Shown here: positions 1,197-13,071 of the stretch, piece after piece
Layout: each line of letters opens with the position of its first letter
Position numbering within the stretch: position 1 is the stretch's first letter
NCBI GenBank assembly: GCA_944390115.1
Contig: CALXOW010000002.1
Span: 1-64,000, forward strand
DNA length: 64,000 nucleotides
Direction: 5' to 3'
Source: an uncultured Anaerobiospirillum sp.
GTDB lineage: Bacteria; Pseudomonadota; Gammaproteobacteria; Enterobacterales; Succinivibrionaceae
Translations under genes and position numbers: made by a program
Notes under the pieces: generated by a model
Seen by the model: the letters and a program-made list of their open reading frames with translations, nothing else
The model's database searches: none
Told to the model about the DNA's origin: nothing

Positions 1197-3086
1197 ATGA
1201 CTGAGAACAATTCGGCGGTTAACTTCAATAAGACATCAGGTGATGATTTCGCCGCTTCTTATAACGAAGCTCAGATCACTGCCTCAGCCCCAGGTGAAAC
1301 TGCCGAGCAAGCTGGTAGCACCGCTCAGGGTAAGAGCTCACTTGATACCTTAGAGGCGGCACGCCAAGGTGCGAGCGCAGTGGTCGCACGTCCACACCTG
1401 CCTTTCTTATCCTCGCTGTTTACCCTGCGCTTTTCGGGTATGTCCATTGTCCACCGCCTCTATCTGTGCGTGGGCATCACCTTTCTCATGTTCTTAGTGG
1501 CCACAGTGGTCGTGTGCATCATGTCCCAGGGCCAAAAGAACGAGGTATCGGGTACCTCAGGTTTAGCCCAAGTCCAGCGCTACAGCAATGACATGAGTGC
1601 GGACATCCTTACTTTAGAAAATTCCATTCATGCCTTAGTGGTGGGACAAAGCCAAGGTAATTTAGCTGAGGCCAAGGTCACCGCTGCGCTGCAATCCTTG
1701 CAGCAAAATTTCAACAACCTGCGCCGGGCCGCAGGTACCGTAACTGAGGTCACTGCGCGTGCGGCCATTGATCGCACGATCTCCTCGGAGCTGACTGCGC
1801 ACATGAACAATTTGGCTACCAGCTCCCAGCAGATTTTAGCTACTTACAACTCAGATCGGGCGATGGCGGCGCGCTATGCCTACGAGCAGTCTTCAGGGGA
1901 GCTCATGCCTGCCTTAGCGGCAGTGCGCCGCCTCATTACCACGGTGACGACTCAGACCTTAGAGCGCCAGCAGGCCGCCAACGAGGTTATGGTTTGGATT
2001 CAAGCTTCGCTCTTCTTGGGCTTAGGTATTTCGCTGTGCGTTATCATCCTCACCAATATCACGATTCGCCACTCGCTGCGCCGTGACACCAATCGCTTGT
2101 TAAAGCGCTTAATGGGGATGGCCCAAGGCGATATGCGCTCCAAGGTTAAGATTCAGGCCCGTGATGAGATTGGCTCGATCGGTCGCTTAGTCGACTACGT
2201 GGTCGATAACACCAACGGTACCTTATCTTTGATGAAGAGCGACGTCGACAAGCTTTACCAAATGGTCAACACCAACTTAGCTTCGATTGATGCGGCCAAC
2301 GACGCAATTTCGGTACAGCGCAACACCGCCCAGAGTGTTGCCAGCTCGACGGCTGAGATGGAGAGCTCGGTTGAGAAGGTTACTGATTTTGCCAAGTCGA
2401 CCTTAAATGAGGTTAAGAGCGCCGAAGAGGCCTCGGACACCTGCCGTCGCACGATGCAGGACAATATTACGACCACCCACACGCTCTCCGACCGTCTGCG
2501 CGCGTCCTCTGAGGCGATCAACAAGATCCACATGATGAGCTCGCAAATCGAGTCCATTGTTAAGACCATTGCGGACATCGCCGACCAGACCAATCTGCTG
2601 GCTTTAAATGCCACGATTGAGTCGGCCCGTGCCGGTGAATCCGGCCGAGGCTTTGCGATCGTGGCCGATGAGATTCGTGAGCTGGCGATCAAGACCGCCA
2701 AGTCGACCAAGGAAGTAAGCCAGACCATCAACCTCCTGGAGCAGGCGGTTACCAACTCGGTCAACGTGATGGCCTCGTGCGAAAGCGAGATGGACAATTC
2801 GCTCCAGCAAAGCTCGCGCGCCAACTCCTCGATTGAGGAGATTATGGGCATCATCGCCACTATCTCGGACATGTCCGAGCAGATCGTAATGTCCTGTCAG
2901 CAGCAGACCAATTCGGCCTCGGAGATCAACCAAAGCATTGCCCATATCTCCAAGCTGGCCGAGGACAGCTACGACCAGATGGCCGAGCTGCAAACCAATA
3001 TGCACGAGCTCAACGATCTGGCGACCAACCAAGCCAAGGTCTTAGGCAAGTTCAAGCTCGCCGACACCGCAACGGCCCAGGCCTAA
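1197..3086 (+). CDS. Methyl-accepting chemotaxis protein
   Basis: A transmembrane chemoreceptor that signals to CheA/CheW. Residues count from the ATG at 1197. A cytoplasmic start of about 85 residues is followed by TM1 (about 86-110, [15 protein letters not shown]), a periplasmic sensor of about 150 residues without a recognisable ligand fold, TM2 (about 262-288), a HAMP segment and the long helical signalling domain. The conserved hairpin tip is at about 458-495 ([18 protein letters not shown], then [12 protein letters not shown]). AAGGG sits 7 nt before this ATG. An in-frame ATG at 1161 also has an AGGG site and would add 12 residues, so the start is ambiguous. The ligand cannot be inferred. 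No CheA or CheW gene lies nearby. Confidence 0.92.
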
Positions 3087-3109
3087 CTGATAAAAATTCT
3101 CAATTTCAA

Positions 3110-3144
3110 GAAGAGGCTGAGTGCTAAGCACCCGGCCTTTTTTT
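3110..3144 (+). terminator. Intrinsic terminator of the chemoreceptor gene
   Basis: GGC..GTGC-TAA-GCAC..GGCC hairpin followed by TTTTTTT, 24 nt after the stop. A copy with a single C/T difference over about 34 bp lies at 5632-5665, on the far side of the tnpB island. Confidence 0.85.
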
Positions 3145-3599
3145 CGTGCCCAACTTTACTTGCAACTTACGACAAACCGCATAAAATCGCGCATTTTTTA
3201 AGGTGCTTTTTCGCAAGCGCACGATCTCATAACGCGCCGCATTTGAGCTGAGGGTGTGAGTAAAGAGATCTGCTGCCAACACTGTCCCCCATAAATTAAA
3301 CTGTAACGTAAATTCTGAAATTGTAATTAAGTGTGAATGTAGATTTAAAATTATGCTCGTTTGGAACCGGGAGATGATTTGCGCGTTATAGACATTGGGA
3401 TAAGAATAAACGCGTACTTTAACTTATGACAAGTGCACTATATTGATATTGTTTAATTGGACAAGTGTACCTTACTGTTAAAAATATAAAAAGTATTCGA
3501 GGTAATGTTTTTTCTTTTTTCTGAAAATGCTCTACAACAGTACCCGTCTATCGTGAGAAATGCTTAAGGCGTTTGGTTCTAAAGGAAAGCGAGGTGATT
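3145..3599. other. AT-rich region upstream of tnpB
   Basis: This stretch is visibly richer in A+T than the neighbouring genes, especially about 3280-3540, suggesting acquired DNA or a strong promoter region. No complete gene is seen. If tnpB belongs to an IS200/IS605-type element, its left end should be here, but I cannot place it: no hairpin with a defined cleavage site stands out. Confidence 0.5.
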
Positions 3600-5069
3600 A
3601 TGGCAAACTCGAACGAACTGGCCGACGTTGCCGTCATCGTTTCTAAAGTCATGCAATTTCGACTTTACCCTACGCCTGAACAACAGGTGATGATTTGGAA
3701 AACGTTTGGCTGCCGCCGCTGGTACTGGAACCAAGCCCTTGCGGTTATCATCCAAGCTAATATCATCTTCCAAAAGGCGTATAACGCTGGTACGCTCGAC
3801 TGCTCTAAGATTGATCAAGACTACATTAAGAATCTCATTGCGACCGCAGCGAAGATTGTCAAGGAGAAGGACGAGTCAGAAAAGAACAAGTTTGATCTGT
3901 CTGACTTGAACATCCACTGGTTTAAGTTCTGGTGCCCTTCTGTTGCCTCGTTCAAGGCCGATAACCCTTTTTTGAAGGAGGTCGATTCTCAGGCTTTGAA
4001 TAGTGTTAGGAAAGATCTTCAGCAGTCATGCTACGCGCAGTTCCCTAAGGGTAAGTTGCCTGAGTTTTGTGCCAAGAATAAGCAGAAGCGCAGCTACACC
4101 GCACAATGCTGTTATGGGAATATAAGGATTGAAAGCAAGGGTCCTACTGATAACTTTATCCGGCTTCCTAAGGTTGGTCTAGTGAAGATCATCCTGCATC
4201 GGCCTATACCAGATGGTTGGGTGCTCAAGCACATTACCTTGACTGAGAAGGCGAGCGGTAAGTTCTATATCTCTATTTGTTTCGATGCCAAGCAAGCAGA
4301 GGTAAAACCTTTAACTGAGTTCAAGCAGGTTGAGGCCTTTGATTACAGCCTGCCGAACTTGGCGGTTTCTGCTTCAGGGCTCAACGATGTCTTCTCCGAT
4401 GACATTCACTGGTTCCGTAAGATGGAGGAAAAGCTAGCGTTCGAGCAGCATAAGCTCTCGCGCATGGAGTATGGTTCCAAGAATTACTGGGAGCAGCGCC
4501 ATCGCGTGGGGGCGATCAATGAGAAGATTGCCAATCGGCGCAAGGACTTTCTGCACAAGCTGTCACACAAGGTGGCCCAAGAGTTCGATGCCGTCGGTGT
4601 CGAGGACATTGATCTCCAGGCTATGGCCAAGTCTCTGAACTTTGGCAAAAGCGTCACTGACAATGGCTTTGGCATTTTCCGCAACCTGTTAGCTTATAAG
4701 CTCAAGGATCTGGGGAAGATTTTGGTCAAGGTCGGGCGCATGTTTGCCAGCTCTCAGACCTGTTCTGTGTGCGGCACGGTTAATCCTGAGGTGAAGGACC
4801 TCGATGTGCGCGAGTGGACCTGCCCGAAATGCGGCACGCACCATGACCGTGATAAGAACGCGGCTGAGAACATCAAGCAGGAAGCTATCAGGATGTTGAA
4901 TCTGTGGCTGAGCGGTGATAAGTCAGTGACAGTTACCACACGTGGTGAGCTGCGCCTTGCTTCAGCGGTTAAGGGCAAAAAGCGTAAGAAGAAAGATTCA
5001 ACGCCAGCCACTGAGCAGCTCAAGCAAGGCGTGGAACCAGATCCGTTTAAGAGCTTGCCTCTTGGCTAG
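3600..5069 (+). CDS. tnpB: Orphan TnpB, RNA-guided nuclease of IS200/IS605 type
   Basis: TnpB proteins are RNA-guided DNA endonucleases, ancestors of Cas12, using an omega RNA usually drawn from the 3' end of their own gene and the element's right end. The 489-residue product has the N-terminal OrfB helix-turn-helix (about 14-45, RLYPTPEQQ) and a complete split RuvC site: Asp248 (FDYSLPN), Glu335 (GVEDID) and Asp416/Asp418 (HDRDKNAA). The zinc ribbon is Cys388/391 and 408/411. The ATG at 3600 has GAGG 5 nt upstream; a TTG at 3573 is less likely. A basic tail of about 60 residues follows RuvC-III. No tnpA transposase is present. Structured RNA-like sequence follows. Confidence 0.93.
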   Translation: MANSNELADVAVIVSKVMQFRLYPTPEQQVMIWKTFGCRRWYWNQALAVIIQANIIFQKAYNAGTLDCSKIDQDYIKNLIATAAKIVKEKDESEKNKFDLSDLNIHWFKFWCPSVASFKADNPFLKEVDSQALNSVRKDLQQSCYAQFPKGKLPEFCAKNKQKRSYTAQCCYGNIRIESKGPTDNFIRLPKVGLVKIILHRPIPDGWVLKHITLTEKASGKFYISICFDAKQAEVKPLTEFKQVEAFDYSLPNLAVSASGLNDVFSDDIHWFRKMEEKLAFEQHKLSRMEYGSKNYWEQRHRVGAINEKIANRRKDFLHKLSHKVAQEFDAVGVEDIDLQAMAKSLNFGKSVTDNGFGIFRNLLAYKLKDLGKILVKVGRMFASSQTCSVCGTVNPEVKDLDVREWTCPKCGTHHDRDKNAAENIKQEAIRMLNLWLSGDKSVTVTTRGELRLASAVKGKKRKKKDSTPATEQLKQGVEPDPFKSLPLG

Positions 5070-5088
5070 GTTCCATCAACAGGGGTGC

Positions 5089-5143
5089 GGTACTTATTTG
5101 AGCAGAGCTCTTATCTTTGCGGTAAGGGCTATGCTATAGTACC
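5089..5143 (+). ncRNA. Nested hairpin just after tnpB, candidate omega RNA part
   Basis: GGTAC (5089-5093) pairs with GTACC (5139-5143) and encloses AGCTCTTA (5106-5113) paired with TAAGGGCT (5123-5130) through one G-U wobble. It starts 20 nt after the tnpB stop, where TnpB omega RNAs are normally encoded. The structure is read from the sequence; the role is inferred from the position. Confidence 0.5.
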
Positions 5144-5169
5144 AAGCAGGATTTTAACAATGATTACAA

Positions 5170-5264
5170 ACCGCTAGCTCAGTGGGGTTCGCTCGCGAAT
5201 GCTCACTTCTGAAAGGAAGTGTCGAACGAGAAGACAGCCTCGAAAGGGGAGTAGAGCGCTATAT
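5170..5264 (+). ncRNA. Structured RNA core, copy 1 (candidate omega RNA scaffold)
   Basis: A 95-bp block repeated at 5424-5517 with about 6 differences. Visible helices: CACTTC/GAAGTG, an outer CTCG/CGAG, and CCTC-GAAA-GGGG with a U-G wobble where copy 2 has a C-G pair. It ends AGTAGAGCGCTATAT. A GAAA-capped hairpin followed by GTAG resembles right ends of IS200/IS605-type elements as I recall them. If so, the divergent bases after 5264 would be the guide. Confidence 0.55.
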
Positions 5265-5268
5265 TCAG

Positions 5269-5401
5269 GAGTATAGATTTTATACTCTAGATAATGGACA
5301 AGCTCTTTTAAGAGCTTGGCAATGCAGTGGAGGTTAACTCCACCAAAAGTAGGCTGTAGTACTGCGCACCTCATTGAAATCACAGGTCGCGCAGAGACAG
5401 C
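5269..5401 (+). repeat. Four consecutive hairpins after core copy 1
   Basis: In order: GAGTATA/TATACTC (5269-5275 and 5281-5287), CAAGCTC/GAGCTTG (5299-5305 and 5312-5318), GTGGAG/CTCCAC (5327-5332 and 5338-5343), and a long nested one with GCTGT, CTGCGC, ACCT pairing AGGT, GCGCAG, ACAGC (5353-5401). No protein frame is convincing here. The density of perfect stems suggests selection at RNA or single-strand DNA level. Confidence 0.55.
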
Positions 5402-5423
5402 AAGGAGTTTCACCCTGGTTTCA

Positions 5424-5517
5424 ACCGCTAGCTCAGTGGGGTTCGCTCGTGAATGCTCACTTCCGAAGGAAGTGTCAAACGATAAGACAGCCCCGAAAGG
5501 GGAGTAGAGCGCTATAT
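5424..5517 (+). ncRNA. Structured RNA core, copy 2
   Basis: Second copy of the 5170-5264 core, one base shorter. Stems are kept: CACTTCC/GGAAGTG capped by GAA, TCGT/ACGA, and CCCC-GAAA-GGGG. The bases after 5517 are unrelated to those after copy 1, as expected if each scaffold carries its own guide or each copy is a separate element end. Confidence 0.55.
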
Positions 5518-5518
5518 C

Positions 5519-5617
5519 CAAGAATATATATCATTCTTGATTATGTGAACCATTATATAAAATGGTTCTTTTGGAAGGCATCACCTTGGTCAACTGACTC
5601 TGGTGAAAATGGCTTCC
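5519..5617 (+). repeat. Three consecutive hairpins after core copy 2
   Basis: CAAGAAT/ATTCTTG (5519-5525 and 5533-5539), GAACCAT/ATGGTTC (5547-5553 and 5562-5568), then GGAAG.CAT.CACC with GGTG.ATG.CTTCC (about 5572-5617). Offsets from the core resemble those of hairpins A to C after copy 1, yet the sequences are unrelated. Confidence 0.5.
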
Positions 5618-5631
5618 TTCTTATCAACTTT

Positions 5632-5667
5632 GAAGAGGCTGAGTGTTAAGCACCCGGCCTTTTTTAT
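5632..5667 (+). terminator. Terminator closing the tnpB/ncRNA island
   Basis: Near-identical copy (one C/T change in about 34 bp) of the chemoreceptor terminator at 3110-3144, ending in TTTTTTATT. It would stop transcripts from tnpB and the structured region. Confidence 0.8.
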
Positions 5668-5818
5668 TGCCAGCTGAAAATTGGGCTGGAGTTGTTCGGG
5701 GAAAGGGCGACTTTAGAGCTTTCATCGACTTAATCATGGTGCCTATTAAGCTTGACTTTTGGTTTTGCACCTAATTCATGTTGTATGGCATCTAGAATTT
5801 TGGCTTAAATTGGTGCAA

Positions 5819-5832
5819 TGTAAACGTTTACA
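5819..5832. promoter_or_regulatory. LacI/GalR-family operator palindrome
   Basis: TGTAAACGTTTACA is a perfect 14-bp palindrome with the central AACGTT typical of LacI-family operators and a close match to GalR-type sites. The identical 14-mer occurs at 24186-24199 upstream of glgC. It lies about 640 bp before sglT. No LacI-family gene is in the window, so the regulator is unknown. Confidence 0.7.
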
Positions 5833-6046
5833 GTGCAAGACAAAAATTTACTGCGTGATAAATGCACCATTTTGACAAGGCAATTTGAGATTGCAATGTG
5901 CACTGAGATCCCAGCTTTTGTGGCTACAATCCTAGATGGCATGGGATTTTATTACTTAACTACTAGTGGTCAAGTCCTAATTTAAGGGTAATATGCGCGC
6001 CACCTATTTGCGCAATATCATAGTTGAGGACATAAAACATAACCAG

Positions 6047-6068
6047 AAATGTGAGCTTCATTGCATTT
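6047..6068. promoter_or_regulatory. Possible CRP binding site upstream of sglT
   Basis: AAATGTGA-N6-TTGCATTT has a perfect left half-site (AAATGTGA) and an imperfect right half relative to the CRP consensus. A CRP site before a sugar symporter is reasonable but the match is partial. Confidence 0.3.
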
Positions 6069-6470
6069 TAGCGAAATGATAGCGTTTTCTGTTTTGGTGC
6101 ACGGACGTTTTCGGCTACAGTGGGCCGCGAGTCAACCCCTGGGTTGGCTGCGTAGCCATATCTATTTTGCTGCTTGGTGGAGTGGGGTTAGTTACCTGCA
6201 TTGGCAGTAGAGAGATGTGGTGATGTTGTGTTGTGAGGAAAGCACCAAAGCAATTGCGTTTTAGCGCGCGTCAGTGGTGTGACGGGCTTTGGTTTCGTCC
6301 TCATAAGTCGATGTGTGATGCCTAAGTTCACGGCGCGTGGGCAGCCCACCCTTGTTGGAGCTGTTCTTGCGGCAAGGCTATGCGCGTATCACCGTGCTTG
6401 GGGTGCAACTGTGTAAGTTGTGCATTGCGGTTGTTAACGCGCGGTGGACTTGGGGCCTCAGGAGAGTGTA

Positions 6471-8093
6471 ATGGAAACTGCAAGCTCAGGATTGGCGTTA
6501 GTTGATTACGCCATCTTTGGCGTGTATGTGGCAGTCATCATCTGTGTGGGTCTGCTCGTATCGCGTCGCAATCGCCAGAGCACGGAAGGTTACTTCCTTG
6601 CGGGCAAGTCCCTTCCTTGGTGGGCCGTCGGTGCCTCCTTAATTGCTGCTAACATCTCGGCCGAGCAGTTCATCGGTATGTCCGGTTCGGGCTTCTCGAT
6701 TGGTTTAGGTATCGCCTCCTATGAGTGGGCTAGTGCCTTGACCTTGCTGTTAGTGGGCAAATTCTTCTTGCCTATCTTCATCCGGCAGGAAATCTATACC
6801 ATCCCTCAATTCGTTGAGAAGCGCTATAACAACACCTTAAAGACTATTCTGGCGGTCTTCTGGGTTTGCTTATACATCTTCGTCAACCTGACCTCGGTTC
6901 TGTACTTAGGTGGCTTAGCCCTCCAGACCATTCTGGGCGTGCCAATGATGTACTCGATCTTCGGTCTGGCGCTCTTTGCTGTGGTTTACTCGGTCTATGG
7001 CGGTCTGTCGGCTGTAGTTTGGACTGACGTTATCCAGGTTGCTGTCTTAGTCTTCGGCGGTATGGCCACGACCATTATGGCTGTGTCCTTTATTGGCGGT
7101 GAAGAGGGCTTATTTGGCGGCTTTGGCGCTATGTACGATGCTGCTCCAGGTCACTTTGAGATGATTCTGGAAAAGGATAATCCTCAATTTATGAACCTTC
7201 CAGGTATTGCCGTATTAATTGGTGGTATGTGGATTGCCAATATGTATTATTGGGGTTTTAATCAGTATATTATCCAAAGAACCTTTGCATCTAAGTCGGT
7301 TAATGAGGCTCAAAAGGGCTTAATCTTTGCTGCATTCCTGAAGTTAATCATTCCATTCATTGTGGTTATCCCAGGTATTGCTGCCTTCGTTATCATCAAC
7401 GATCCTGAGTTAATGGCTAAGCTGGGTGATATGGCTACCTCGCATATGCCATCGGATGCCCACGCTGACTATGCTTATCCATGGTTAACCCAGTTCTTAC
7501 CAGCTGGTATTAAGGGTGTAGTATTCGCCGCCTTAGCCGCAGCTATCGTTTCGTCCTTAGCTTCGATGCTGAACTCCACGGCCACCATCTTCACCTTAGA
7601 TATTTACAAACAGTATATCGACAAGAAAGCCTCTGATTCTAAGTTAGTAAACATCGGTCGTATAACCAGTTTGGCAGCCATCGTAATCGCCTGTTTTGTG
7701 GCTCCATTACTGGGTTCTATCGGTCAAGCCTTCCAGTTTATACAAGAGTATACCGGCCTAGTATCACCAGGTATTCTAGCTGTATTTATGCTTGGTTTAT
7801 TCTGGAAGAAAACTACTTCTAAGGGTGCTATTGTTGGTGTCTTAGCTTCGATCCCGATCGCTCTGCTCCTCAAGTTCTTACCTCTTGAGATGCCTTTCTT
7901 GGATCAGATGTTCTACACCTTCATCCTGACTTGCGCTACCATCATCTTCGTTACCCTGAACACCTCTGAGCACGACGATGATCCAAATGGTATCCCACTG
8001 ACCAAGGACGTCTTTGCTACCAGCAGTGCCTTCAACATCGGTGCTTATGCCGTGCTGATCATCTTAGCTGTGCTGTACTCCGTCTTCTGGTAA
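6471..8093 (+). CDS. sglT: Sodium/glucose-galactose symporter, vSGLT-like
   Basis: An inner-membrane solute:sodium symporter (SSS, LeuT fold, about 14 helices) importing glucose or galactose with Na+. The 540-residue product resembles Vibrio vSGLT along its whole length, including YFLAGKSLPWWAVGAS, NISAEQFIGMSGSG, YYWGFNQYIIQRT with the gating Tyr, and AAIVSSLASMLNSTA with the Na+-site serines. The ATG at 6471 has CAGGAGAG 7 nt upstream; a GTG at 6444 is less likely. It appears monocistronic, with a strong terminator. Glucose versus galactose cannot be decided by eye; the GalR-like operator upstream mildly favours galactose. Confidence 0.93.
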   Translation: METASSGLALVDYAIFGVYVAVIICVGLLVSRRNRQSTEGYFLAGKSLPWWAVGASLIAANISAEQFIGMSGSGFSIGLGIASYEWASALTLLLVGKFFLPIFIRQEIYTIPQFVEKRYNNTLKTILAVFWVCLYIFVNLTSVLYLGGLALQTILGVPMMYSIFGLALFAVVYSVYGGLSAVVWTDVIQVAVLVFGGMATTIMAVSFIGGEEGLFGGFGAMYDAAPGHFEMILEKDNPQFMNLPGIAVLIGGMWIANMYYWGFNQYIIQRTFASKSVNEAQKGLIFAAFLKLIIPFIVVIPGIAAFVIINDPELMAKLGDMATSHMPSDAHADYAYPWLTQFLPAGIKGVVFAALAAAIVSSLASMLNSTATIFTLDIYKQYIDKKASDSKLVNIGRITSLAAIVIACFVAPLLGSIGQAFQFIQEYTGLVSPGILAVFMLGLFWKKTTSKGAIVGVLASIPIALLLKFLPLEMPFLDQMFYTFILTCATIIFVTLNTSEHDDDPNGIPLTKDVFATSSAFNIGAYAVLIILAVLYSVFW

Positions 8094-9745: not shown

Positions 9746-9756
9746 GCGCGCCGCTA

Positions 9757-9805
9757 CCCTTCCTGAGTTTGTGATCGGAAAGGGCGTATCGTTATCACAA
9801 AGGAG
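9757..9805 (+). promoter_or_regulatory. rpsO leader pseudoknot overlapping the ribosome binding site
   Basis: Stem I: CCCTT and CC (9757-9763) with GG and AAGGG (9777-9784), one A bulged. Stem II: TTTGTGAT (9768-9775) with ATCACAAA (9794-9801). The 5' arm of stem II lies in the loop of stem I, giving an H-type pseudoknot that runs into AGGAG at 9801-9805. In E. coli, S15 represses its own translation through such a structure; the same role is inferred here. Confidence 0.75.
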
Positions 9806-9814
9806 CAATGCACA

Positions 9815-10084
9815 ATGGCATTATCTGTAGAGCAGAAGGCAAAGATCGTTTCTGAGTTTGGTCGTGGCGCTAATGACACTGGTTCGGCCGAGGTTCAAAT
9901 CGCTTTACTGACCTATCGTATCGCTGACCTTCAGCCACACTTCCAGGCTAACAAGAAGGATCACCACTCCCGTCGTGGTCTTCTGCGCATGGTAGCTCAG
10001 CGTCGTCGCTTATTAGACTACTTAAAGGCTAGCGACCACAGCCGCTACTTAGCCATCGTTGAGAAGTTAAAGCTCCGTCGCTAG
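9815..10084 (+). CDS. rpsO: 30S ribosomal protein S15
   Basis: A primary 16S rRNA-binding protein of the small-subunit platform that also represses its own mRNA. The 89-residue product has the usual length and the signature regions [33 protein letters not shown] and [15 protein letters not shown] lies about 10 nt before the ATG, inside the leader pseudoknot. It has its own promoter and terminator. pnp follows as in many gammaproteobacteria but after an unusually long gap of about 850 bp. Confidence 0.98.
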
Positions 10085-10153: not shown

Positions 10154-10938
10154 ATTGCCCGCGCGCCTTGCTCTCTGCCTCATATCTCTTTGCTGCCACC
10201 CGCGCCTTGTTCCCAGCCGTATCTCTCTTTGCTGCTACACGCCCCTTGCTCACTGCCTCGTATCCGTTTATTGCCGCGCACCCCTGGGCTTGAAGCCTTA
10301 TATCTGCTCGTGCCTTTGGCTGTGCTGCTCTGAGCCTACGCTTCCTTGCAGCTTAGCCTCTGATTGACCAGCTCTTTCTTGCAGATCCTAGGTTTGCTGA
10401 CATGTTGCTTCCAGTCTCTTTGCGTGCAGGCCTTTTGTTTATTGGCTCTTGTTACTTGGCCCCAGTCTTGCCGGGCGTGCCGGGGCGTGAAAATGACGTT
10501 TAGGCAACAATCTTGCGTAAACTAAGATGCCTTTAGCGGCGCTTTCACCTATAATTATGGGTCAACTTGTCACAAGGGTTTTGCTCGAGCGCCTACGCGG
10601 ATGTTGCCGCGTTTTCTGCGCTGAACATGTTTTTCTTTTGTCAAAGTTACCGCTTTTGTTGGTGGAACCTGTCCTCACATGACTGACCCGGTTCGGGCTG
10701 GACTAACCTGGCTTGGGCTGTTTGGTGGGCGATGGGACGCTGTGACCTCACATGGTGAGCCGAATTTTGTGGCACTGACGTCGTCTGATTGAGACCTGTC
10801 CCCTTCGTTGTTTGTTGAGCATCGGGCTGATGTAAGCCTTGTGGGTGAATCAAGGCTAGGGGGTAGGTTCTATGTCGTTTTGGTGTGATTGGACGGCGGG
10901 CCACGCGGAATTAAGCAAGGGATCGGAGAAGATTTTTG
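10154..10938. other. rpsO-pnp intergenic region
   Basis: About 785 bp without a supported gene. It begins with a 39-bp tandem repeat (10168-10323). The rest should contain the pnp promoter and its 5' leader, where E. coli has an RNase III/PNPase autoregulation hairpin, but I cannot single out either. Short frames on both strands lack ribosome binding sites and homology. Confidence 0.5.
10168..10323 (+). repeat. 39-bp degenerate tandem repeat, about 4 units
   Basis: Units at 10168-10206, 10207-10245 and 10246-10284 are each exactly 39 bp, sharing TTGYTC..GCC..TATC..TTTGCTGC and a CGCGCC-like end. A fourth, more diverged unit follows at 10285-10323. Because 39 is a multiple of 3, an open frame runs through it, but it encodes cysteine/leucine-rich repeats of no known type. 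Confidence 0.65.
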
Positions 10939-13071
10939 ATGAATTTACAGCCTATCACCCGCACCTTTAAGTATGGTCGCCATACTGTTACTTTAGAGAC
11001 AGGTGCTATTGGTCGTCAGGCAGACTCAGCTGTGATCGCCTCGATGGATGATACCGTCGTTTTAGCCACAGTAGTCTGCAAGCGTAAAGATGCGGTAGAA
11101 GGCCGCGACTTTTTCCCTCTGACCGTCAACTACCAAGAGCGTGCTTATGCCGCTGGTCGTATCCCGGTTAGCTTCTTCCGCCGTGAAGGTCGCCCAAGCG
11201 AGAGCGAGACTTTAATTGCTCGCCTCATCGACCGCCCACTGCGTCCTTTATTCCCAGATGGCTTTGTCAATGAAGTTCAGGTTGTGGTCACTGTAATGTC
11301 CGCTAACCCTGAGGTTCCAACTGACATTATCTCCATTATCGCCGCTTCGGCTGCTTTAGCTACCTCCGGCCTGCCATGGAATGGCCCATTAGGTGGTGCC
11401 CGCGTCGGCTTTATCAATGGTGAGTACGTCTTAAACCCAATCACCTCGGAAATGGCTAAGTCCGACCTCGATTTAGTGGTCGCTGGTACCAAGCAAGCCG
11501 TAGTGATGGTAGAGTCTGAGGCTAATATCCTGCCTGAGGACGTCATGTTAGGTGCGGTGATGTACGGTCACGAGCAGCAACAGGTCGTCATCGATGAGAT
11601 TGAGGCTTTCAAGGCCCAGGTTAACCGTCCAGTTTGGGATTGGGTCAAGCCACAAGAGGACGAAGAGTTAGTTAAGACCGTCCAAGACTTAGCCCGTGAG
11701 GATGTGGGTGCTGCCTTCTACATCGTTGATAAGCTCGAGCGTCAAGGTCGCTTAGAGTCGATCAAGGAAGAGGTCACCGCTAAGGTTACCGCGATGAAGG
11801 AGGAGTGGGCTGAGCTGGGCGATAAGATCGCCACCATCCTCTTTGAGCTGGAGCGCTCGATCGTCCGTGAGCGTATCTTATCGGGCGAGAAGCGTATCGA
11901 TGGTCGTACCTTGCGTATGATCCGCCCAATCACCGTCGCTACCGGCATTCTGCCACGCGTTCACGGTTCGGCTCTCTTCACTCGTGGTGAGACTCAGGCT
12001 ATCGCCACCTGCACCTTAGGCTCCGAGCGCGATGCTCAGACCATTGAGGATATGACCGGCACCCGCTCCGATCGCTTCATCCTCCACTACAACTTCCCAC
12101 CATACTGCGTGGGCGAGACCGGCTTAATCGGTTCGCCAAAGCGTCGTGAGATTGGTCACGGCCGTTTAGCTAAGCGCGCCTTACGTGCCGTCTTACCAGA
12201 TGCTGATAAGTTCCCATACACTATCCGCGTGGTTTCCGAGATTACTGAGTCGAATGGTTCCTCGTCGATGGCTTCGGTGTGCGGTGGTTCCCTGGCCTTA
12301 TTTGCTGCCGGTGTTCCATGCAAGGCTGCAGTTGCCGGTATCGCAATGGGCTTAGTTAAGGAAGGCGAGCGCGTCGCGATCTTAACCGACATCATGGGCG
12401 ATGAAGACCACTTAGGTGATATGGACTTCAAGGTCGCAGGTACCACCGAGGGCGTGACCGCCTTACAGATGGATATCAAGACCGACGGTATCACCCGTGA
12501 GATTATGCAGCAGGCCTTAACTGATGCTCACGCCGCCCGTATCCACCTGTTAAAGATTATGGGTAGCGCTCTGCCTGAGCCAGAGGCTGAGTTATCGCCA
12601 TTTGCTCCACGCATGATCTTAATCAATGTCCCAGCCGATAAGATTAAGGACATCATCGGTAAGGGTGGCGCTACGATTCGTGCTCTGCAAGCTGACACCA
12701 ATACTCAGATTGACTTAAGCGATGACGGCACCGTCCGCATTGCTGCTTGCTCTGAGGCTGATGGCAAGGCTGCGATTGCCCGCATCCACGAGTTAACCGC
12801 TGAGGTTGAGGTCGGTAAGGACTACAACGGTAAGGTCGTCCGCATCACCGAGTTTGGTGCCTTTGTGAACATCCTGCCAGGCCGTGACGGCTTAGTCCAC
12901 GTTTCGCAGATTGCCGATGAGCGTGTGGACAATGTAGCTGACTACTTACGTGTCGGCGACACTGTCCGCGTCCGTGTCTTAGGCGTAGACGAGACCAACG
13001 GTCGCATCCGCCTCTCGATTCGTGCTTGCCTGCAAGATGCTGAGGGCGAGGCTCCAGCTGACGCTGAGTAA
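10939..13071 (+). CDS. pnp: Polyribonucleotide nucleotidyltransferase (PNPase)
   Basis: A phosphorolytic 3'-5' exoribonuclease and degradosome component acting in mRNA decay. The 710-residue product has two RNase PH domains (about 1-140 and 310-540, with [10 protein letters not shown] and [16 protein letters not shown]), a KH domain near 550-610 ([17 protein letters not shown]) and an S1 domain near 620-690 ([28 protein letters not shown]). Length matches E. coli PNPase. The ATG at 10939 is used rather than the TTG one codon earlier; GGAGAA lies about 9 nt upstream. A 22-bp tandem repeat begins inside the last codons. Confidence 0.98.

Follow-up and report, generated by a model that had tools for sequence, protein, structure and literature searches.

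Can a transposon nuclease that works with one guide RNA give rise to a system with several guides, and by what route? TnpB, a bacterial relative of Cas12, the CRISPR enzyme, as a rule stores the site where its element inserted in a single RNA guide (PMC11870625). The route from such a single-guide nuclease to a multi-guide system is an open question, and it is addressed by a locus that we analyzed in a 64,000-nt window of a contig from an uncultured Anaerobiospirillum sp. (CALXOW010000002.1). Here one TnpB gene is apparently followed by two guide-RNA copies instead of one, and the locus may represent an early stage in the passage from a jumping gene to a system with several guides.

We asked first what the repeated unit is. 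An earlier note on this DNA had described a 95-bp core that recurs behind tnpB with about 6 differences and had tentatively read both copies as TnpB omega-RNA scaffolds. Sequence comparison agreed with the description to within one base: the core at 5169-5264 recurs at 5423-5517 with six differences (five substitutions and one 1-nt deletion). Over the 91 nt of the scaffold proper, 6 differences leave the copies about 93% identical. We then used a covariance model (R2) made from 18 IS200/IS605 omega-RNA scaffolds taken from loci found with a motif pattern (described below), one plasmid, and viral records, with the window sequence excluded. In the window, up to E = 10, R2 matched only the two cores (Table 1); its match on copy 2 extends to 5534, the 3' part being misaligned. 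That a model holding no window sequence finds exactly both cores identifies the two by homology as IS605-type TnpB omega-RNA scaffolds, in line with the earlier reading. R2 also placed scaffolds at the 3' side of the relatives' tnpB in 10 of 17 loci at E ≤ 0.01 (an eleventh scored 0.17; L008 and L018 among the 17 are one place). Copy 2 has one C-U mismatch in stem 2 (5446/5483) and a lower R2 score than copy 1.

Table 1. Features of the locus, with positions in the window (R2, covariance model)
Feature	Position	Strand	Remarks
Left terminator-like hairpin	3110..3143	+	direct repeat flanking the insert
Orphan tnpB	3573..5069	+	498 aa from TTG 3573; 473 aa if read from 3648
Omega-RNA scaffold copy 1 (predicted)	5169..5259	+	R2, 38.2 bits, E 5.4e-9 (E-value rough)
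Copy 1 hairpin 1	5171-5185	+	R2 match
Copy 1 pseudoknot 5' strand GCUC	5177..5180	+	pairs with 5254-5257 GAGC; family alignment
Copy 1 stem 2	5192-5195/5227-5230	+	R2 match
Copy 1 apical hairpin	5204-5221	+	R2 match
Copy 1 right-end hairpin	5238-5249	+	R2 match
Copy 1 pseudoknot 3' strand GAGC	5254..5257	+	positions -6 to -3 before the guide
Candidate guide 1, TATATTCAGGAGTATA	5260..5275	+	16 nt; +7 to +13 within hairpin A 5' arm
Structured tail copy 1	5266..5354	+	hairpins A, B, C; z -3.41 and -3.60 for 5260-5354
Copy 1 hairpin A	5266-5272/5284-5290	+	in register with copy 2
Copy 1 hairpin B	5299-5318	+	folding
Copy 1 hairpin C	5327-5343	+	folding
Omega-RNA scaffold copy 2 (predicted)	5423..5512	+	R2, 29.5 bits, E 1.4e-6 (E-value rough); end 5512 by copy 1's letters
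Copy 2 pseudoknot 5' strand GCUC	5431..5434	+	pairs with 5507-5510 GAGC; letters read directly
Copy 2 pseudoknot 3' strand GAGC	5507..5510	+	letters read directly; same as copy 1
Candidate guide 2, TATATCCAAGAATATA	5513..5528	+	16 nt; 13/16 identical to guide 1
Structured tail copy 2	5519..5617	+	hairpins A, B, C; z -6.07 and -5.85 for 5513-5631
Copy 2 hairpin A	5519-5525/5533-5539	+	folding
Copy 2 hairpin B	5547-5568	+	folding
Copy 2 hairpin C	5573-5617	+	folding
Right terminator-like hairpin and T-run	5632..5665	+	continuous with host sequence of the empty site

The same kind of RNA accompanies tnpB elsewhere. In the plasmid and the phage TnpB relatives that were listed as best (39.3% and 38.8% identity), tnpB is followed directly on its 3' side by the sequence AACCGTGGGACACACGGGG(T/A)TAGCTCGCTTATGC...TATCGAACGAGAA...GGGGAGGATGTCAC, a plain likeness to the cores. 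A pattern for this scaffold motif matched at least 119 stretches in genome_contigs and 2 in viral_contigs (121 matches in 121 loci); among the 80 titles listed, gut and rumen Clostridia predominate. Rfam gave no family for the cores at gathering scores, nor over the cores at E ≤ 5; its best match was L20_leader at 5570-5671 (E 0.16), below its cut-off. A model from the two cores alone (R1) was dropped as too narrow: it matched 0 of 16 relative loci and, across 395 genomes, gave one weak match (E 0.0045) besides the own genome.

Across the 123 contigs (3.64 Mb) of the own genome, BLAST with 5160-5290 at E ≤ 0.001 detected the core in its two copies at this locus and nowhere else. When 11 genomes of the genus were searched with a limit of E ≤ 1, the core was found only in its own, the best other match being 25 nt long (E 0.064). 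Neither plasmids nor phages yielded a BLAST match to 5160-5535, and exact pieces of the core were absent from viral_contigs. Could the pair be chance similarity or an artifact of a 123-contig assembly? We consider this highly improbable, because both the core and its flanks differ between the copies, the right flank runs on into host sequence known from a sister species, and the independent covariance model recovers both copies.

Folding the scaffolds alone as nested structures gave unexceptional results for copy 1 (z -0.71; 53 of 200 shuffles as good) and copy 2 (z -1.89; 9 of 200), so the case for scaffolds rests on homology and on a pseudoknot. In ISDra2, the bases that immediately precede the guide form pairs with a loop close to the 5' end of the scaffold (PMC10097598). 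Pairing of the hairpin-1 loop with the pre-guide bases is likewise present in copy 1, by alignment, and in copy 2, by direct reading. Across 70 aligned scaffolds, the four pairs of this helix are 93.0% paired and three of the four show both-side changes; R2 did not contain the helix, so the 70-row alignment was not fitted to it. Pseudoknot and hairpin 1 together, the latter of which R2 did contain, have 95.8% of cells paired; the figure for shuffles is 74.8%, with 0 of 500 reaching the observed value, and for slid controls it is 26.9-45.9%. The number of both-side-changed pairs in the two helices, 8, was matched by 22 of 500 shuffles.

Relative to the commonest pairs of the family (G-C, A-U, C-G, A-U), the copy 1 pseudoknot (G-C, C-G, U-A, C-G) has three pairs changed on both sides. 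The altered helix is identical in the two copies; the copy 2 row of the alignment counts two of four pseudoknot cells as unpaired through misalignment at its 3' end, and its letters read directly equal those of copy 1. Being common to both copies, these changes represent one evolutionary history and not two independent ones. The earlier note had based conservation of a helix on a U-G to C-G change in the CCUC/CCCC-GAAA-GGGG hairpin. The change is present between the copies, but a single change is weak evidence of covariation; the covariation in the pseudoknot is stronger. An outer stem, CGCU/AGCG, from the nested minimum-energy fold was rejected, as the family supports hairpin 1 and the pseudoknot.

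Is the TnpB that would use these scaffolds intact? The protein matches PF01385, PF07282, PF12323, and NF040570 above cut-offs (OrfB_IS605, Cas12f1-like TNB domains, guided_TnpB), and its best match, NF038281, stays under the 425-bit cut-off of that model. The description of an orphan TnpB upstream of the cores thus held, both by these domains and by the absence of tnpA from the insert. Alignment to ISDra2 TnpB (8bf8/8h1j) revealed that D, E, and D at the catalytic positions are kept, as are both zinc-ribbon CxxC pairs. TnpB therefore looks intact at its active site. At 4896-5066, about 57 residues, many of them basic, lie beyond the end of the ISDra2 alignment (33 in the ISDra2 chain). A search for TnpB gave one place in the own genome, and a peptide-pattern search for relatives found none in genome_contigs and viral_contigs. 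We also compared the locus with TldR proteins, nuclease-dead TnpB repressors that, according to PMC13418256, likewise combine a TnpB relative with a guide RNA, are possibly domesticated, and have an inactivated RuvC domain. TldR identity was rejected on account of the intact RuvC D-E-D.

The element ends tell a different story from a canonical element. Letters at the right end in 70 rows were TCAC in 40, TCAA in 20, and other in 10 (one of three TCAT rows being the misaligned copy 2); GCGC occurs only in the window, where both copies carry it (copy 2 by direct reading). Upstream of tnpB, the left ends of two relatives gave matches of 7-8 nt at most, a comparison that could miss a diverged end. 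A Y1_Tnp search of the own genome found three places, none on the contig of the window, and the insert is without tnpA. TnpA needs left and right end motifs for excision. With a GCGC right end, a left end that is not recognized, and no tnpA in the insert, the locus looks immobilized, and canonical excision by TnpA seems unlikely. One of the three Y1 matches is a full-length gene on another contig, through which mobilization in trans would be conceivable. The other two are partial matches near contig starts (G000:C41:77-265 and G000:C92:88-291), perhaps pieces of repeated elements.

How did the unit arrive? A 33-bp copy of a chemoreceptor-gene terminator stands on either side of the insert, which measures about 2.49 kb. 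This direct repeat (3110-3143 and 5632-5665) is near-perfect, and a search for the terminator motif (23 bp, ≤ 3 mismatches) found only two occurrences in the own genome, both here. In a sister species of the same genus (G003) the site is empty: a chemoreceptor gene, one terminator, and a sodium symporter gene (names assigned from Pfam) are contiguous. Window 2464-3143 aligns with G003 1-679 (93.4%), and window 5633-7277 with G003 647-2304 (95.8%); the 33-bp stretch is thus single there and double in the window. IS605 elements are not known to make target duplications, and the repeat is thus not expected from an IS605 insertion. Recombination at a terminator carried by the insert would fit the repeat, and so would loss of the insert in G003 by recombination between repeats. 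The hairpin at 5632-5665 is likely the end of the omega-RNA transcript; a consensus terminator scan did not list it, and the name terminator rests on its fold and T-run. The accompanying scan listed no plus-strand promoter-like sites between tnpB and copy 2.

Do the two scaffolds carry different guides? By homology the scaffold 3' end is at 5259, and the core of the earlier note overlaps the guide by its first 5 nt. That note had called the sequence right after each core unrelated. Our comparison contradicts this: about 40 nt 3' of the scaffold can be aligned between the copies (1 of 2,000 shuffled pairs as good or better), as can 35 nt 5' of it (4 of 2,000 as good); similarity is not detectable farther out, between 5301-5400 and 5553-5632 (135 of 500 shuffles as good). 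Over +1 to +16, the guides are identical at 13 of 16 positions, including the first five bases, and from this we infer that both candidate guides descend from one ancestral guide. The proposal that one TnpB is served by two scaffolds with different guides is consequently supported in part: R2 supports two scaffolds, and the guides are not unrelated. A CRISPR-like array, which implies several repeats with unrelated spacers, was rejected for two scaffolds with such similar guides.

With up to 2 mismatches allowed, CTATATYCARGARTATA was found in the own genome at both copies and at three further sites, where it has 2 mismatches in every case. TTTAW followed by the first 11 guide bases, with at most one mismatch, had no match there; TTTAW was read by eye from the left ends of five relatives and may not be the TAM of this TnpB. 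The absence of a TTTAW-flanked match suggests that the target of the guides is likely foreign DNA or a lost element site. TTTAN plus guide matched 7 viral contigs, always inside open frames, three of them in the same gene, which we presume to be topoisomerase-like. We do not count these viral matches as targets, since by a rough estimate their number is near chance for AT-rich sequence.

We also looked at what follows each guide. Regions 5070-5400 and 5370-5670 both fold better than 100 of 100 dinucleotide shuffles (z -3.96 and -4.11), and most of the excess stability comes from the tails (z -3.41 and -6.07, versus +0.24, +1.03, and -1.07 for three nearby control stretches). One in 100 distinct family scaffold flanks is as stable over 95 nt as either tail; over the first 40 nt, 13 and 24 of 100 fold at least equally well. 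The whole tail is unusual, and hairpin A alone is not. Hairpin A forms 6 of 7 pairs in copy 1 (CAGGAGT/ACTCTAG; one G-U pair and one A-A mismatch) and 7 of 7 in copy 2 (CAAGAAT/ATTCTTG), the two differing by four substitutions that include a double change of one G-C pair to A-U. Hairpins B and C occur in both tails, but sequence similarity between the copies was not detectable in them. Hairpins before the scaffolds were considered as part of the unit and left aside for weak folding support: 6 of 300 shuffles do as well as the one before copy 1 (z -2.56), and 21 of 300 as well as the one before copy 2 (z -1.68).

The tails raise the possibility that the scaffolds have ceased to serve as guide RNAs: the hairpin would sequester the guide, and the RNAs would act as decoys or regulators of TnpB. 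Guide bases are indeed largely paired (mean 0.67 in copy 1 and 0.63 in copy 2, versus a family median of 0.41; 8 and 10 of 100 flanks reach the values of the two copies), and the compensatory change preserves hairpin A. We nevertheless regard this explanation as improbable: the pseudoknot and most scaffold pairs are retained, pairing is just as high in some members of the family whose flanks are ordinary, and 3' trimming would release the guide.

Are two scaffolds behind one TnpB found elsewhere? R2 was run on 150 comparison entries, in sets of 17, 100, 29, and four (L067, L068, L189, and L190) at E thresholds of 1, 0.01, 0.1, and 0.01, and 143 of them had at least one match (11, 100, 28, and 4). 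Two scaffolds lay within 1 kb in 1 of the 150, the viral contig L189, which is a lower bound because many loci end near the scaffold. Extra matches in L166, L118, and L138 are at least 3 kb away. A further 19 loci (L170-L188), covered by the pattern alone, had one match each; since the first scaffold of L189 escapes this pattern, pairs can be missed by it. R2 matched in 27 of 395 genomes of the order, with no two of the matches listed lying within 1 kb of each other; the search took 9 candidates from each genome, did not recover copy 2 of the window, and can miss tandem pairs. Tandem omega-RNAs behind TnpB were not found among the listed literature matches, which comprise titles and the starts of abstracts of chiefly open-access papers. 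PMC13418256 describes one Oscillibacter genome with four tldR loci whose guides cross-target, and a figure legend there states that a broken tldR locus may still supply guide RNAs in trans; as described, this multiplexing uses separate loci and not tandem scaffolds.

The viral case bears directly on a rival origin of copy 2, in which a second element, since lost, or a nested insertion left its right end behind; copy 2 would then have persisted by chance, with only copy 1 or neither functional. In L189 (IMGVR_UViG_3300031760_000274; 10446-11864), a TnpB (10446-11564) is followed on one strand by a scaffold with its guide (11577-11692). Next come a repeated piece of the tnpB 3' end and another scaffold (11768-11864), whose guide is unrelated. 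This close parallel and the stem-2 mismatch in copy 2 make a lost element, which the earlier note had also suggested, a possibility to be taken seriously, albeit a less probable one. L189 differs from our locus in its unrelated guides, canonical TCAC ends, and tnpB-tail repeat between the scaffolds, and tblastn of the window TnpB against 5070-5700 gave nothing at E ≤ 10. Moreover, the unusual GAGCGC before the guide, the first five guide bases, and about 35 nt upstream are common to both copies, which is unexpected from independent insertions, and the scaffolds have kept their identity while the outer flanks diverged past alignment. Because no tnpB remnant was found before copy 2 in the window, local duplication of the RNA unit is our preferred, though not proven, origin. 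L189 indicates that tandem scaffolds behind TnpB arose elsewhere too.

Taken together, these data lead us to favor, with restrained confidence, an IS200/IS605-type TnpB locus that is immobilized, may have been domesticated, and has undergone duplication of its omega-RNA unit. The locus resembles IS200/IS605 TnpB-omega-RNA systems (ISDra2 type, Ruminococcus-type omega-RNA family) in its TnpB domains and active site and in hairpin 1, stem 2, the apical hairpin, the right-end hairpin, and the pseudoknot. It departs from them in having two scaffolds, GCGC in place of TCAC/TCAA with a compensating pseudoknot, a 4-bp right-end hairpin, structured tails, an unrecognized left end, and an insert without tnpA. 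Under the favored scenario, the omega-RNA unit would have duplicated locally behind one TnpB; tnpB and both scaffolds would be read as one transcript ending at 5632-5665; TnpB would bind and process both scaffolds; and two TnpB complexes would carry related yet distinct guides. Less certainly, the post-scaffold hairpin might partly hide the guide in the precursor until 3' trimming.

A more specific version, which we regard as doubtful, is that domestication took in a catalytically competent TnpB along with a cassette of two omega-RNAs, in which an evolved scaffold incompatible with TnpA was duplicated and retained in both copies, and the guides, diverging from one ancestor, are gated by hairpins. 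Such a cassette, if real, would be an intermediate between transposon and multi-guide system, with new guides arising from duplication of entire omega-RNA units and not from added spacers. A TnpB with seemingly lost ends and two scaffolds sharing a coevolved pseudoknot makes that route testable.

Two minor observations accompany these results. In a comparison locus (L089, from 6603), the right-end hairpin and GATGTCAC are repeated about 60 nt downstream, a partial right-end duplication. Elsewhere in the window, an S15 leader (RF00114) lies at 9755-9871, before rpsO.
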